Assembly (NCBI GenBank): GCA_024279275.1
Contig: JAJRRS010000019.1
Coordinates: 1-64,000 of the forward strand
Origin: Planctomycetota bacterium
Lineage (GTDB): Bacteria; Planctomycetota; Phycisphaerae; Phycisphaerales; Phycisphaeraceae
DNA: 64,000 bases
Reading direction: 5' to 3'
Positions within the stretch are counted from its first letter, which is position 1. The number at the start of each line of letters is the position of its first letter. Below, one piece after another: positions 6,034 through 14,044 of the stretch. Made by a program: the position numbers and the translations under genes. The notes beneath the pieces were generated by a model, which saw only the letters and a list, made by a program, of their open reading frames with translations, did not search any database and was not told where the DNA came from.

Positions 6034-6052
6034 CGCGACTCGTAGAGTCGCG
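6034..6052. repeat. Perfect hairpin CGCGACTC-GTA-GAGTCGCG
   Basis: An 8-bp perfect stem with a 3-base loop lies between cysH and the convergent envelope gene. The flanks are AATTCTTTTTCCT on the left and GGCTAGAAAAAAT on the right, so neither strand gives a stem followed directly by a T-run. It may be a bidirectional terminator or another dispersed palindrome. The rest of 5816-6070 holds only the CACAGAG repeat copy and a CGGCGGCTAAACG phrase like the tail of the repeats near 322 and 1454. Confidence 0.55.
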
Positions 6053-6070
6053 GCTAGAAAAAATGTGCTA

Positions 6071-9000
6071 TTAATGAGTGTCTTGTTCGCTTCTTCGTAT
6101 CGGTATCGTGCCGGACTTGATCTTGAATACTTCGATGCGTCCGGAGTCGCGGTGCCACTTGAAGGCGCTGGCTTTGGTTAGGTTTGGCTCGCCTTCTTTC
6201 TCAAAGGTGACTTGGCGGGGGTCGTCGGACCAGAGGATGATTTCGCGTTTGGATTCCTGGTAGAGCAGGTGGTCGCAGTGGACGGTGGTTGGGCCTTGGA
6301 GGATGCGTATGCCGCCGTCGGCCCAGACTCGCTGGAGTTCGGGCTTGGGCGCGTCTTTGGCAAGCCAACCGCCCCCGGAGTTGCCCCCGGCCCCGGAAGT
6401 TTTCGCTCCGCGTTTCTTTGACGGTCCTTTGAGTTCGGCGGCGAGGTCGTGGCAGTCGAGTTGGACACGGTCGCCATCTTCGGAGTCGTGGACCATGACG
6501 ACGGCACCTTTCATGGTCATGATCCCGTCGGTCATGTTGAGGATGAGGCCATCGGTCCACTGGAAGGCGGTGAGGCCTCGCCCGCCGAAGTCGATGGACT
6601 TGTTGTTGTCGGTCTTCGCGGAAGCGGTGGCGGGGTCTTCGGGCCGGTTTTCCGTGATTAGCATGCGCCCATAGCCGAAGACGTGAACCTGTTGGTTGGC
6701 CTGAGATGAATCCGCCGGCGTGCCCGTGCCGGGGTCGGTGAACACCATCTTCTGCGAGTCGGTGAGGAGGAGTTCGGTCATCAGGTTTTTGTGTTGAGCG
6801 GTGGCGTAGCTGCGTGCGCGGAAGCGGACGTTGCCTAGCATGGTGGCGGTGGCGAGTCGGCGGTCGCCGGTAGCTTCATCGACGACGAAGACGAGGGTGA
6901 GGTCGTTGCCCATGAGTTCGTTGATGTCGGTGCCATCGACGGAGAGGGTTTTGACGTTGCCCAGGAAGTGTGCGGTGCCTGCGGTGTCGTCGTAGTCCAT
7001 GCGGGTGGCCCAGGTGACACGGACGGTTTTTCCGGGGTCGTTGGGGTCTTGCATGACATCGAACCAGCCGGGGCCGATGACGCTGACGGTGCGGCCCTGC
7101 TGGTCCATGACGATGTGGTCGCCGGCGAGTGTGGCATCGGGGCGGATGACCAATGCGGGGGAACCGGGGGAATCTTGTGTACCGGGGGTGCCGGGGGAAC
7201 CGGGGGTGCCGAAGAGTTCGAGTTGGTCTTTGGCGGGTTCGGCGTGCAGGCGGTGTGCCTGGATCTTTACGTCCTGGTCTTTGATGTTGGCTTTGATGTT
7301 GCCTTGCGCATCAAGCGATCTGACGGCGAGTTTGTCGTCGCCTTGCGGGGTATCTTCAAAGAGAGCAAGTGTCAGGCTGTCGGCGGTCATGTCCAGGTCT
7401 ATGTAGTCCACCGCGACGTTGCCAAGGAACGTGGCGGTCTTGACGCCCTTGATCCGTGAACCGCCGGCGGGGTCGCCCCCAGATGTTTCGGAGGGTTGTT
7501 GGCTGGGTTTGTTCTTGAGGTAGAACTGCAAGTCCAGGCGGGTGTCGAAGGCGACGTGGATTGGGGATCGGGTATCGGGAGAGGGAATCGGGGTGTCGGT
7601 GGTGTCGGGTTTATTTTTGATTTGGCCGGTGAGTTGGCCGGGGCCTGTGACGTAGCCGGTGGCGTTGAGTTGGTCGATGGAGAGTTCTTGGCCGGTGAGT
7701 TGGCCCATATTGGGGGCGTTGATTTTGACGGGCGAGTTGGTTGATCCTTGGGCGAGTAGTCGTGCGTTGTGGGTGAAGTACGAGACGGTGGGTGCGAGGA
7801 TTGTTTCGCCCTGATCGGTGCGGATCTTTGCGGGCATCCCTGGTTTACCCTTGACGCTGACCCTGACATCGTCGGGGCTGGTCATTTCGTCGGGGGGATC
7901 GCTTAAGGGTGAGACGACCAGCCGACCGGCCCAGGTGATGACCACGTCCTGATCGGTAAAGGATGTGAGTGATCGACTATCGGCTTGCGGGACCTGGCCG
8001 ATGCTTGCGGCCAGGGCGTAAAGCAGTGCGCCGTGCAGCGGGTCTGATGATGCCAACTCGATGGAGTGATTGGAGGTGGTCAGGGGCGTGGTGGTAGTCG
8101 AAGTTTCAGGAGAATCCTCGGGGGAATCGTCGGGGGAATCGTCGGGGGAATCGGGGGGTGAAGTGTCGTCGCGGCCCCCCGCTGCTTTGGTACTGAAGAT
8201 TGTGGAAAGGTCGTCGCCTTGGATCACGTACTGGTCTTGGCCGACGCGGACATCCTTTAACTGCTCGAAGGTGGCGAGATAGAACTGGACCGGGCGGGCA
8301 ACGTCGTCGGGCTGCGTGCCGGGTTCATCAGGTGAGGAAGCGTCGGCGGTGGTAGCGGAAGATTTCGTGGGCTTGCTGCGTGGTTGAGATTGATCTTGTG
8401 ATGCGACGGCCGATGAATCGGCCTCCGCCGGTGCGGAGGTTGTTGTGGACGTGTCTGTGGTGGGTTTGGGGATGTAGTAAAGGGATTCGCCTTCTTCGAT
8501 GACGAGGCGTTCGATGCGGTGGCGGCGTTGGTTGTAGTTCAGGCTCAGGCCTCTGCCGCGGAACTGGACCTGTGGGCCGGTCATGAAGATCGCCCCTTCG
8601 CTTTCGAGTTGTTGAAGCTCCATGTCGAAGTGTAAGGGTTCGTCGAAGTAGGTGCGCATGACGACGTGTTTGTCGGACTTGAAATCGACCGGCGAGCCGT
8701 CGGGGGTTTCGTAGAGGGTGACGACGACGTTGCCGCGCATCTCGCCTTCGCGGGGGTGGTTGTCGGGGGCGACGATGGTGCCTTCGTCGGCGACGATGGT
8801 GATTTCTTTGCCGGGGCCAAGGTGGATCTGAGCGGTGGTGTTGATGACATCGACCACGCCTTGAGGCAGGGGGACGACGCGGTCGGCGTAGAAGAGGATG
8901 CCGCTTTCGCTGATCTCGTAGAGGATGCCGGTGGCCTCGCCGATCAGCGATTCGCCGTCAGCGGTGCCCTTGGGGACGTAGATATCCGGCGGGGCATCTG

Positions 9001-10717: not shown

Positions 10718-11542
10718 TCAGAATTGCAGCCGTAGACTTACCACGGCGGTATAATCGGTTTCCAATCGTGGCGAGGCCAAGTCCTGGAGGATAGGCAGTT
10801 GCAGGCCTGCTTCGAGGATGCCGCGTGGTGTGATAAGTTGAAAGCCCGGGGATCCGAAGACCTGTGTGCTGCCGTCGGTGATGTACTTGGCGTTGATTTC
10901 GCCGACGGCGTAGAGGGCCCAGTCACCGATCCTGTCGCTGTTGCCGTGTGCCAGGCGGTAGGAGAATGCGACGTCGGCGCGCAGCTCGTCGTCGCCGGGC
11001 AGGCCGCCAGCGGTGTTGAGTTTGTAGAGCACGTCCCAGTCGATCCACCAGTTTAAGCGTTGATGTGTCCAGACGGTGCCGAAGATGGGGTCGATGCTGT
11101 CGCTGGAGAAGGTGTCGTCGTATGAGGGTATTTCCGCGCCTGCGATGAAGGCCCAGCGCGTGGTGACGGCGTGTTGGTCCAGTTGATAGAAGCGGTACTT
11201 GGCCAGTAGCGGGATGTCGCCGACGCCGGTGTCGTTGCGGGATGTGCCGGAGCCGAAGTCGATCCGCCGATCGATGATGGGGACGGTGCCAAGCAGGCTG
11301 AGGTTTTCGGTCAGGCCGTGGACGAGGGTGATCGGGGTGACGCTGAGTTTGACCTCGCGGTTCAGGGCGGTGGGGTCGTTGGACAATTCGGTGTAGCGCC
11401 ACTGGGCGCGGACGATGGTGCCGCCTTTGGGTGGTGTGAGCGCGACGTCGGTGTTCAGGCCTGCGGCGTGGGCGTGGCTGTCAAGAATCAGAATCAAGGC
11501 CAAAGTTAAGGCTGCAGGCAACAGACAATGTCGTCGTTCCAT
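10718..11542 (-). CDS. Outer-membrane beta-barrel, Phenol_MetA_deg/transporter-like
   Basis: This 274-residue protein has a signal peptide (LLPAALTLALILILDSHAHA|AG) followed by alternating hydrophobic/polar strands and a C-terminal phenylalanine (VVSLRLQF) typical of outer-membrane barrels. Blocks such as GLTENLSLLGTVPIIDRR, GVGDIPLLAKYRFYQ, WAFIAGAEIPSYDD and GSPGFQLITPRGILEAGLQLPI resemble the MetA-pathway-of-phenol-degradation family of putative outer-membrane transporters. The ATG at 11542 has an AGGAAG site and begins MERRHC; ten extra in-frame codons upstream are unlikely to be used. It is the last gene of the merR operon, 62 bases after the HMA lipoprotein, which suggests a role in moving metal or a metal ligand across the outer membrane. 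That role is inference. Confidence 0.65.
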   Translation of the reverse strand: MERRHCLLPAALTLALILILDSHAHAAGLNTDVALTPPKGGTIVRAQWRYTELSNDPTALNREVKLSVTPITLVHGLTENLSLLGTVPIIDRRIDFGSGTSRNDTGVGDIPLLAKYRFYQLDQHAVTTRWAFIAGAEIPSYDDTFSSDSIDPIFGTVWTHQRLNWWIDWDVLYKLNTAGGLPGDDELRADVAFSYRLAHGNSDRIGDWALYAVGEINAKYITDGSTQVFGSPGFQLITPRGILEAGLQLPILQDLASPRLETDYTAVVSLRLQF

Positions 11543-11604
11543 GTCGTTGCTTCCTACCGGCCCTCGGCCCACCCAATCAAGCGGTCAACTGAGCCGCTCC
11601 ATCA

Positions 11605-11994
11605 TCAGGGCATCTGTACCTCACCAGGCGTAAACCCCGCCGACTCGACGGCCCCGCGTAGCTGCTGAGCAGTCGGTGCGTCTTGTTCAGATAATATCAC
11701 ACTCGCCTCGCCCTTCTCAAGTGAAACGTCTACTTGCTCTACGCCATCGAGTGCCTGGATCTGCCGTTGGATGTTGTAGGTGCAGAACGGGCAGGCCATA
11801 CCGTTGATCGGTATCGTTGCTTGCGGCCCGGACACGGTGGAGGCCTGTGTGGCTGGGGCCTCGGTGTTGTGCGTGGGTTGTGTGGTCGTCGGGAGTTCAG
11901 CGGTCACGATGTCCTTGGTGCCGGTACATCCAGCGGCAATCAAGATGAACAGCGTTACGATCCATGCCGGTGTATGTCGGGTGGTCCTTTTCAT
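11605..11994 (-). CDS. HMA-domain lipoprotein (MerP-like)
   Basis: This 129-residue protein has a lipoprotein signal (IVTLFILIAAGC, modified Cys about 23), a Thr/Pro-rich linker (about 30-57) and a heavy-metal-associated domain (about 58-127). The metal motif is GMACPFC (Cys68 and Cys71), the position and spacing of the GMTCxxC motif of MerP, CopZ and Atx1. IPINGMACPFCTYNIQRQIQALDGVEQVDVSLEKGEASVIL covers the first helix and second strand. It should bind soft metal (Hg(II), Cu(I) or similar) at a membrane surface. It is the fourth gene of the merR operon, 31 bases after the thioredoxin-like gene. Confidence 0.8.
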   Translation of the reverse strand: MKRTTRHTPAWIVTLFILIAAGCTGTKDIVTAELPTTTQPTHNTEAPATQASTVSGPQATIPINGMACPFCTYNIQRQIQALDGVEQVDVSLEKGEASVILSEQDAPTAQQLRGAVESAGFTPGEVQMP

Positions 11995-12025
11995 GCGGGT
12001 GGTTCCATTCTAAGGTTGAGGTCGA

Positions 12026-12292
12026 TCACGAGGCTTGGCCCAGCCCCGCTGCGCGTAACGCGGCTTCATTGGGGCCTTGGTTCGTGCAGCAGGTTGCCAG
12101 TTGGCCGTCGATCACCACGGCGGGGACGGTGTGGATGCTCAACGCTTCTGCTCGTTTGGCGGTGTCGGGGTTGCGCATGTCCATAATCTGGACCTCGCAA
12201 CTTGGGCAGGCGACACGGTGGACCAACTCGATCGTTTGTTCACATGCTGGGCAGCCGGCAGAGAAGACTTCGATTTTGCGTTTGTTGTTCAT
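12026..12292 (-). CDS. Small thioredoxin/glutaredoxin-like thiol protein
   Basis: This 88-residue single-domain protein begins KIEVFSAGCPACEQTIELV with a CPAC pair (14-17), has a second pair CPSC (29-32), a cis-proline strand TVPAVVIDG and an extra CC pair (68-69) near the end. The arrangement is that of short thioredoxin-like proteins, with more cysteines than the redox function needs, so metal binding is likely. Its start overlaps the end of the fusion gene by ATGA (12289-12292), so it is translationally coupled to it. Possible jobs are to reduce or relay metal from the fusion protein's thiol sites. No signal peptide is seen, so it should be cytoplasmic. Confidence 0.75.
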   Translation of the reverse strand: MNNKRKIEVFSAGCPACEQTIELVHRVACPSCEVQIMDMRNPDTAKRAEALSIHTVPAVVIDGQLATCCTNQGPNEAALRAAGLGQAS

Positions 12293-13512
12293 GGTGATTG
12301 CCTCACTTTCCCTTGGTAGCCGAAGTCAGAGATAGCGGTTAAAACCGCGTCGACATCGGAGGGGTTGCGGAGTTGGACGTTAGCGGATTGGGTGTCGTAA
12401 TCGACGTGGGCCTGCTGGACGCCCGGGAGCGTGTTGATTTGGGCCGAGAGTCCGGTGGCGCAAGCGGCGCAGGTCATGCCGGCGATGTCCAGTTGGACGG
12501 TGCGTGTGGGTATGGGGGCGGCGGTCGAGTCGGCACCGGCCGTTTGATCGGGCTGCGTCACGGCGGGCGGGGAAGTGGTGGAGGCTGCGTTGGTGTTATT
12601 CAGGAAGTAGCCGAGGTAGTTGGGGAACAGCGCGAAGGCCAACACCCAGATGGTGGCGAAGACAAGCATGGCGGCGTTGAGTTTTCGCAGTTTGGGATTG
12701 GGTGTGGCGCACGCAGAGCCTGGGGCGCAGCGGGGTTTCTTGAAGACGAGGTAGAAGCCGGTGGCGAGCAGCGCAACGGTCACGCCCAGGAAGATGGGTC
12801 GGTAAGCTTCGAAGAACCCGCCGATACCGGCTGCGGAGACGCCCATTGAGATCAGCAGTAGTGGAAGCCAGCAGCACGCGGAAGCGATCGCGGCGGTGAG
12901 GACCGCGCCGGCAGACGCCCAGAGTCCCGTGCGGGGCGGGGATGCTGCGTGCATTTGGGTTGTTGTTTGGGAGGCTGTTTGGGAGGCCGTTTGGGGCGAC
13001 GGATTACAGGATGTCGAGCAGCAGTCCGGCTGCGGCGTATCTTTAGCGGTATCGGTGATACCCAGATCTGTCTGGGCTTTTTTGATCGCTGCGCGGACGT
13101 TCGCCAGGCAGCAGGAGCCTTGGGGGTTGGTCTGTGCGCAGCGGTCCAGGCCTTGCTTGCACTTGGCGCTTATTTCGTCGAATACCACGCATTTTCCGGT
13201 CTTCGCCAGTTCATCGTGGATGCTCTGGGCGGTGTGGTTAAAACAGTAGCAGACGGGCTGGGGCGGGTCGGTTTCTTTCTGGTCGATGCGGACGGTGACG
13301 TCGGCCTTGCTGATGGTTTCGCCGGTGTCGGGGTTGAAGTAGGCCACCTCGCAATCGGGGCCGGGGCAGAAGCGGAATCCCTCGAGCGTGGTGAGTTTGT
13401 TACGCGCAGCGGGATCAACCAGCGACTTGATCGTGATGGGTTTGACAGCCTTGCCCATTGAACCGCAGGCGGGGCAGTGTGTGCTGACAGGCTTGTCGGG
13501 ATTAGTAGTCAT
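12289..13512 (-). CDS. CopZ-like Fe-S/zinc domain + MerT-like membrane domain + HMA domain fusion
   Basis: This 407-residue protein has three parts. Residues 1-150 carry cysteines at CPAC 13-16, 49, 54, CYC 88-90, 108, 118, 125 and CC 134-135, in the pattern of the N-terminal zinc and [2Fe-2S] domain of Archaeoglobus CopZ. Residues about 194-303 are MerT-like: ACCWLPLLL in the first helix (Cys213-214), CAPGSAC between helices two and three (Cys262 and 268, the six-residue spacing of the MerT loop cysteines) and a third helix. Residues 338-403 are an HMA domain with GMTCAAC (348, 351). A Thr/Ser/Gln linker (172-188) and an acidic/Pro linker separate the parts. It would bind soft metal on both sides of the membrane and move it. 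It is the second gene of the operon, 16 bases after merR. Confidence 0.82.
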   Translation of the reverse strand: MTTNPDKPVSTHCPACGSMGKAVKPITIKSLVDPAARNKLTTLEGFRFCPGPDCEVAYFNPDTGETISKADVTVRIDQKETDPPQPVCYCFNHTAQSIHDELAKTGKCVVFDEISAKCKQGLDRCAQTNPQGSCCLANVRAAIKKAQTDLGITDTAKDTPQPDCCSTSCNPSPQTASQTASQTTTQMHAASPPRTGLWASAGAVLTAAIASACCWLPLLLISMGVSAAGIGGFFEAYRPIFLGVTVALLATGFYLVFKKPRCAPGSACATPNPKLRKLNAAMLVFATIWVLAFALFPNYLGYFLNNTNAASTTSPPAVTQPDQTAGADSTAAPIPTRTVQLDIAGMTCAACATGLSAQINTLPGVQQAHVDYDTQSANVQLRNPSDVDAVLTAISDFGYQGKVRQSP

Positions 13513-13528
13513 GGATGGTTTCGTTCAG

Positions 13529-13993
13529 TCATCTTGATTTCCGCTTGGGCGCAGCGGGTGTCGGATTGATATCGCGTTGTGTTTCACCGCTGTGCCCCTC
13601 TTCGAGGCTGTTTAGGATGGGGCATCGCCCGGTGTCTTGCCCGACGTCGCAGGTATCGACCAGGTTGGATAATGTCTGCCTCATCGCGGTGAGCAGTTGG
13701 AGTTTGTCGTCGATGTCTTCGATCTTCGCCTGGGCGCGGGTCTTGACGTCGGTGCAGGTGGTTTCGGGGTCGGCCCGGAGGGTCAGCAAGTCGTGTATCT
13801 CTTTTAACGTGAACCCAAGGCTCTGGGCACGCTTGATGAACCGGACCTGCCGGGCGGCCTCTGGGTTGAATCGGCGATACCCGGCGCGGGTCCGCTGAGG
13901 TGGCGCAAGCAGGCCACGGCGTTCGTAATAGCGCACCGTCTCCACGTTCACGCCGGTGTCTTTGGCAAGTTCGCCGATGCTCATGTCTGACAT
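13529..13993 (-). CDS. merR: MerR-family regulator with mercury-type cysteine triad
   Basis: This 154-residue regulator has an N-terminal winged helix (SIGELAKDTGVNVETVRYYERRGLL), a dimer helix, and cysteines at 80, 115 and 124. TC followed later by CDVGQDTGRCP matches the three Hg(II) ligands of classical MerR (Cys82, 117 and 126 in Tn501, with eight residues between the last two). That spacing is not the one seen in CueR or ZntR, so mercury sensing is the best guess. A GGAG ribosome site seven bases upstream supports the ATG at 13993. It is the first gene of its own operon, so it should activate its own transcription and that of the transport genes when metal binds. Confidence 0.88.
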   Translation of the reverse strand: MSDMSIGELAKDTGVNVETVRYYERRGLLAPPQRTRAGYRRFNPEAARQVRFIKRAQSLGFTLKEIHDLLTLRADPETTCTDVKTRAQAKIEDIDDKLQLLTAMRQTLSNLVDTCDVGQDTGRCPILNSLEEGHSGETQRDINPTPAAPKRKSR

Positions 13994-14012
13994 ATCCGTA
14001 CTCCAGTATTAG

Positions 14013-14044
14013 AGTATACGGCCCGTACCTAGGTACAGGGTCAA
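14013..14044 (-). promoter_or_regulatory. MerR-type promoter/operator with 20-bp spacer
   Basis: On the minus strand TTGACC (14044-14039) and TATACT (14018-14013) are separated by exactly 20 bases. The spacer holds a perfect 12-bp palindrome GTACCTAGGTAC (14025-14036), extended by CC/GG on each side with one mismatch. An overlong 19-20 bp spacer with a GTAC...GTAC dyad is the standard layout of MerR-activated promoters, where the regulator untwists the DNA. The box drives merR and the four genes after it. Confidence 0.88.

Follow-up and report, generated by a model that had tools for sequence, protein, structure and literature searches.

The stretch of DNA analysed here (the window; 64,000 nucleotides from a member of the Phycisphaeraceae) belongs to a 3.76-Mb genome assembled in 200 contigs. 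Five genes follow one another on its minus strand: merR, encoding an Hg-type MerR regulator (13529-13993); a gene for a fusion protein made of a CopZ N-terminal domain, MerT and a MerP-like HMA domain (12289-13512); a gene for a small thioredoxin-like protein with CPAC, CPSC and CC motifs (12026-12292); a gene for an HMA-domain lipoprotein with a CPFC metal site and a plausible lipobox, IAAGC (11605-11994); and a gene for a putative outer-membrane barrel of the COG4313/PF13557 type (10718-11542). The genes are separated by 16, -4, 31 and 62 bases, and these gaps, like the five genes and their coordinates, are all as reported in a first-pass annotation of this DNA. Change by codon position follows the order 2 < 1 < 3 in all genes and all core genes are under purifying selection. 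The five-gene operon is real and well conserved. None of its genes encodes an RND protein, an adaptor or an ATPase. The source genome contains one MerT and, elsewhere, three P1B ATPases.

Regulation and protein domains

The regulator belongs to the Pfam MerR family and carries cysteines 80, 115 and 124 at Hg-type spacing, with eight residues between the last two. Among proteins of solved structure, it is closest to 4ua1 and Tn501 MerR, and the cysteines align with those of both. The score against TIGR02051 (138.9) lies below the cut-off of 150.85, but MerR is still the best regulator family for this protein. Upstream of the gene, at 14013-14044 on the minus strand, we observed a mer-type operator/promoter with an overlong spacer, TTGACC-N20-TATACT with GTACctagGTAC, GTAC-N4-GTAC (dyad GTAC-ctag-GTAC), as a single exact match in the window, where 0 were expected (100 shuffles), and as the sole copy in the whole genome. 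Six further loci (L037, L038, L049, L067, L071 and L075) have this element in front of MerR or the fusion gene; they comprise fusion and barrel operons of relatives, among them the barrel operon of G220, a genome of the same order as the source (locus L038). The first-pass annotation had proposed one MerR-type promoter for all five genes, in keeping with the Hg-type sensor and mer-type operator found here, which on sequence evidence drive a single five-gene unit. With merR in first position, autoregulation of the operon is likely.

In the fusion protein, the Pfam domains zf_CopZ, MerT and HMA mark a CopZ N-terminal [2Fe-2S]/Zn domain (~13096-13488), a MerT domain (12604-12939) and a MerP-like HMA domain (12313-12492). 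The MerT domain reaches 48.6 bits against PF02411 (cut-off 32.9) and has both cysteine pairs, CC at 213-214 in helix 1 and C262/C268 (C-x5-C) in the loop. The CopZ domain is 0.6 bits above the cut-off of NF047645 (100.6 versus 100), and all its zinc and [2Fe-2S] cysteines align with those of Archaeoglobus fulgidus CopZ (2hu9), from which it differs in being joined to a membrane MerT rather than forming a free copper chaperone. The MerT cysteine pairs, the MerP-like CxxC and all CopZ [2Fe-2S]/Zn ligands are retained in an alignment of relatives. The order of MerT followed by an HMA domain is shared with the MerTP fusions NF033556 and NF045683 (the latter a MerT/CopZ fusion-like selenoprotein), to which the window protein adds the N-terminal CopZ domain; it belongs to neither family by score (83.1 for a cut-off of 180, and 80 for a cut-off of 375). 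The structure model of the fusion was poor, with a pTM of 0.29. The thioredoxin-like protein is a member of Thioredoxin_3 (PF13192, 34.4 bits with a cut-off of 24.8), with CPAC as the CxxC motif.

The locus shares with the classical mer operon (merR-T-P-A) the Hg-type MerR, the mer operator, a MerT with both cysteine pairs and a MerP-like HMA domain. It differs in having no MerA or MerB, in the fusion of MerT and MerP to a CopZ [2Fe-2S]/Zn domain, and in the addition of a thioredoxin-like protein, an HMA lipoprotein and an outer-membrane barrel. We would therefore class the operon as mer-type in transport and not as a strict mer operon, because MerA was not found. As in the first-pass annotation, we could match this composition to no described mer type.

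Relatives of the fusion protein and the distribution of MerA

A profile scan of genome contigs with the single fusion protein as query returned no relatives, and a scan with the fusion alignment returned 388, from Planctomycetota, Verrucomicrobiota, Deltaproteobacteria, Nitrospirae, Acidobacteria and others. Among the best 80 of these 388, a set that is partly non-independent as some contigs occur twice and some MAGs are related, we found, at up to 5 kb from the fusion, MerR in 61 loci, the barrel in 13, a thioredoxin in 6, a Cys-type HMA protein in 6 and MerA in 4, versus none in 40 random regions from planctomycete genomes for any of the five. In locus L040, CopZ, MerT, two HMA domains and thioredoxin form one chain (6047-7996) that adjoins a barrel. 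Separately, a small YnfA-like membrane protein lies at most 5 kb from the fusion in 9 of the same 80 loci and in 0 of 40 controls (near the fusion in L038, L057, L067, L075, L163, L166, L169 and L171). In locus L039, thioredoxin-MerTP-HMA-barrel genes are preceded by a CsoR-type repressor (PF02583; 6295-6654) instead of MerR, and on the planctomycete plasmid pK2D_1 (CP036351.1; L108, 9998-11233) a CopZ-MerT-HMA fusion is misnamed merA, ‘Mercuric reductase’.

The first-pass annotation had noted that merA is missing from the operon, and the search extended this to the assembled genome (94.87% complete), where six MerA profile matches all fell below the curated cut-off; MerB was likewise not found in the genome, in a search run without a positive control. 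The candidates on contigs C197 (with its end on C50) and C46 are dihydrolipoamide dehydrogenases (Lpd), C197/C50 representing one split gene beside sucB, and the remaining matches are SthA/transhydrogenase-like, CoA-disulfide-reductase-like or an unrelated oxidoreductase. The C-terminal CC present in clear MerA proteins of relatives is absent from the two Lpd proteins of this genome that were checked, one of which ends at a contig edge. The ~5% of the genome that is missing might still contain a merA gene.

Of 392 planctomycete genomes sampled, 44 encode MerT. Four of these 44 have MerA over the cut-off, in every case directly beside MerT, and the other 40 have none; neither does the related genome OFTM355 nor any of twelve further genomes with the fusion. 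MerT without merA is thus the common state in Planctomycetota. MerA-like oxidoreductases near the fusion (L037, L121, L128, L142 and others) were rejected as MerA, with CxxxxC and the C-terminal CC both missing. Such MerA-like flavin oxidoreductases (L037, L096, L097, L121, L128 and L142), several of them near the fusion or MerT, are easily misread as MerA.

Mercury detoxification is normally understood via MerA. With a form of MerT that spans the phylum, in most cases without MerA, and an Hg-type sensor kept in the window, Hg(II) handling without MerA becomes directly testable. The fate of imported Hg(II) in such genomes has a parallel in the puzzle of genomes with MerB and no MerA: about half of MerB-encoding genomes are without MerA, and other ways of dealing with cytoplasmic Hg(II) have been proposed (PMC8261052).

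The barrel and its metal-binding partner

The barrel gene probably starts with the ATG at 11542, because this codon begins a good signal peptide and the gap of 62 bases implies the same start; an upstream GTG would give 11572. The mature part of the protein is cysteine-free. Searches with the window barrel gave no match in Pfam or NCBIfam, chance matches only among PDB sequences and, with the barrel alone, nothing on plasmids; homologues in L039, L041, L105 and L106 pass PF13557 (Phenol_MetA_deg). The AlphaFold2 model (pLDDT 76) is beta-rich and barrel-like, with modest TM-scores of ~0.56-0.62 to FapF (5o65) and the COG4313 channel 4rl8 (E 1.3e-6 for the latter), so that a 12-stranded barrel fold is a tentative assignment. 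We base the likely membership of the COG4313/PF13557 type on the fold, these homologues, a phylum search and cysteine content. Length, signal peptide and perhaps the fold are shared with described channels of this type (4rl8, TcpY, SphA); these go with a hydrophobic-compound pathway, and the window barrel instead with an HMA metal-binding protein.

This pairing, in the window with the Pfam HMA lipoprotein, is widespread. When TGA was read through, 25 of 28 barrel loci had a separate HMA gene beside the barrel, and in the remaining 3 the HMA domain occurs only inside the neighbouring MerT protein. For 40 more distant barrels chosen from the phylum search, an HMA partner was found beside 19, versus 0 of 40 random regions, even though the random regions were larger than the barrel loci. 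All 11 further barrel loci retrieved from the order and family of the window (L094, L105-L107 and L249-L255) have the partner. We rejected a chance link, as 0 of 40 random regions had either component. The first-pass annotation had allowed for a barrel unrelated to metal; the dedicated HMA partner that accompanies the barrel ties it to metal. In L105 (6118-7945) and L106 (5636-8370), an HMA lipoprotein and barrel in window order lie beside a CusC-like gene, in L105 together with a multicopper oxidase. These copper-type clusters indicate that the role of the pair goes beyond mercury, and it seems to serve copper as well. The pair also occurs beside a true merA, in L038 and L041.

In many barrel partners the metal ligands are in-frame TGA codons (UPIU, UPFU, CPFU, CNLU and others). 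When all three stop codons were read as cysteine, the stops inside HMA matches were TGA in 72 of 72 cases and never TAA or TAG; overlapping windows inflate this number but not the ratio. Frameshifts or pseudogenes were rejected as an explanation, all stops being TGA. SelB over the cut-off was found in every tested genome with TGA motifs and was not found in the genomes of the window, G220, OFTM355 and OFTM12, which use cysteine. We read the in-frame TGA at the HMA ligands as selenocysteine, with selenium serving as a metal ligand and not as a redox catalyst, a choice that would fit a very soft metal. None of the NCBIfam selenoprotein models reaches its cut-off on the barrel partners, the UxxU model NF041115 (cut-off 95) giving at most 43.5 for these and 45.2 for the window lipoprotein. 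The proteins of this model share with the barrel partners the HMA fold and Sec or Cys metal ligands, and differ in that the barrel partners are exported and adjoin a barrel. The partners with TGA ligands probably form an uncurated group of exported metal-binding selenoproteins. We recorded such partners, with UxxU, CxxU or UxU ligands, in L040, L053, L071, L088-L094, L131, L136, L149, L168, L233, L240, L241, L247, L256, L257, L259, L266 and L272. Reviews (PMC13188914, PMC9312934) already cover selenocysteine both for MerT and for UxxU metal-binding proteins; we found in them no link between Sec HMA proteins and a barrel.

Comparison with OFTM355 (Phycisphaeraceae; locus L109) allowed us to assess how the pair relates to the rest of the operon. 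Synteny was settled by protein comparison and gene order, a global DNA alignment being misleading. OFTM355 has merR, the fusion (65% identical) and the thioredoxin (71%), followed by the downstream neighbours of the window operon, a phosphomannomutase (91% identical) and a 1015-aa protein. This syntenic locus has neither the HMA lipoprotein nor the barrel, and a search of the rest of that genome gave no such barrel. The three core genes therefore form a complete set without that pair, and the operon is best seen as merR-fusion-thioredoxin plus an optional HMA lipoprotein-barrel pair, which would represent either an optional insertion or a loss. The five-gene set of the first-pass annotation stands in the window, but not as one fixed unit, given that OFTM355 has the core three only. 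In other relatives the order is MerR, small membrane protein, barrel, HMA, fusion, thioredoxin (L118) or MerR, fusion, HMA, NHL propeller, barrel (L185); in a member of the Verrucomicrobia (L127), MerR-HMA-barrel is convergent to MerR/fusion, and G220 has a barrel 64% identical to that of the window, the fusion and merA in one cluster. The varied arrangements in L118, L185, L127 and L040 support a shared function.

A possible route for the metal

We propose, with roughly even confidence, that the locus is an Hg(II)-induced soft-metal handling operon of mer transport type without MerA, to which an envelope capture pair has been recruited. Hg(II), or a thiophilic metal of similar chemistry, would be caught in the periplasm by the HMA lipoprotein, which would hand it to the MerP-like domain; the MerT cysteines would come next, and in the cytoplasm the CopZ domain and the thioredoxin-like protein would receive it. 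The topology of the fusion is presumably that of classical MerT, and we infer the order of hand-over. Instead of reaching MerA, the metal would be held on cytoplasmic thiols and Fe-S, binding of this kind being the probable end point; the Fe-S/thiol partners might also reduce it, or one of the three P1B ATPases might pump it out again. The AfCopZ N-domain can reduce Cu(II). At the outer membrane, the barrel would supply the lipoprotein with metal complexes or vent them. We rank inward flow and capture above outward flow, as described COG4313 members act in uptake and the same barrels lie beside true merA. Several points weigh against such a relay: the pair is also found in copper-type clusters, the barrel matches known folds modestly and the structure model of the fusion is of low quality. 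Furthermore, Hg(II) import without MerA should sensitise cells, as with merTP without merA.

The first-pass annotation had reasoned that, with no merA, the set may move metal outward, hold it on thiols or serve another soft metal, and the absence of merA from the genome can be taken to favour a fusion that moves metal from cytoplasm to periplasm and a lipoprotein that feeds the barrel for exit. Efflux or detoxification settings are likewise suggested by the CusC-like and multicopper oxidase genes beside HMA-barrel pairs in L105 and L106, and FapF, the closest structural match of the barrel, is a secretion pore. MerT, however, is no energised pump and the operon provides none, described COG4313 members are uptake channels (PMC4493636), inward flow is expected where the same pair accompanies a true merA (L038, L041), and OFTM355 retains the core without having the pair. 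With 40 of 44 MerT genomes having no MerA over the cut-off, an outward direction does not follow from its absence, and we consider this route unlikely.

We find it slightly less likely still that the locus is a remnant of an ordinary mer operon whose merA was lost or was not captured in the assembly. The incomplete assembly and the G220 cluster, in which barrel, fusion and merA occur together, would agree with a remnant, but this locus has the genome's sole operator copy, all its genes are intact and under purifying selection, and MerA over the cut-off is missing from OFTM355, the twelve other fusion genomes and most MerT genomes alike. We attach a similarly low probability to an operon for another thiophilic metal, Cu(I), Ag(I), Cd(II) or Pb(II). 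In favour of this, the CopZ domain takes its name from a copper chaperone, copper-type clusters contain related HMA-barrel pairs and the regulator misses the TIGR02051 cut-off; against this, MerR is its best family, its cysteines align with those of Hg-MerR at the Hg-type eight-residue spacing, and the operator is of mer type.

Alongside the relay that we favour, we suggest more tentatively, with confidence slightly short of even, that HMA (seleno)proteins and COG4313-like barrels make up an undescribed outer-membrane soft-metal system with a dedicated exported Cys/Sec partner, widespread in Planctomycetota and present in Verrucomicrobiota, and plugged in here into a merA-less, Hg-induced relay in which the CopZ [2Fe-2S] domain replaces MerA as end point. 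We found no description of an HMA-COG4313 pair in the open literature, subscription papers lying outside the scope of the search, and the pair may be undescribed. The barrel and its HMA partner would add a dedicated outer-membrane part, a layer absent from the mer literature surveyed. We also observed an NHL beta-propeller protein in the HMA-barrel operons of two Phycisphaeria (L038, 2353-3417; L185, 8133-9113).
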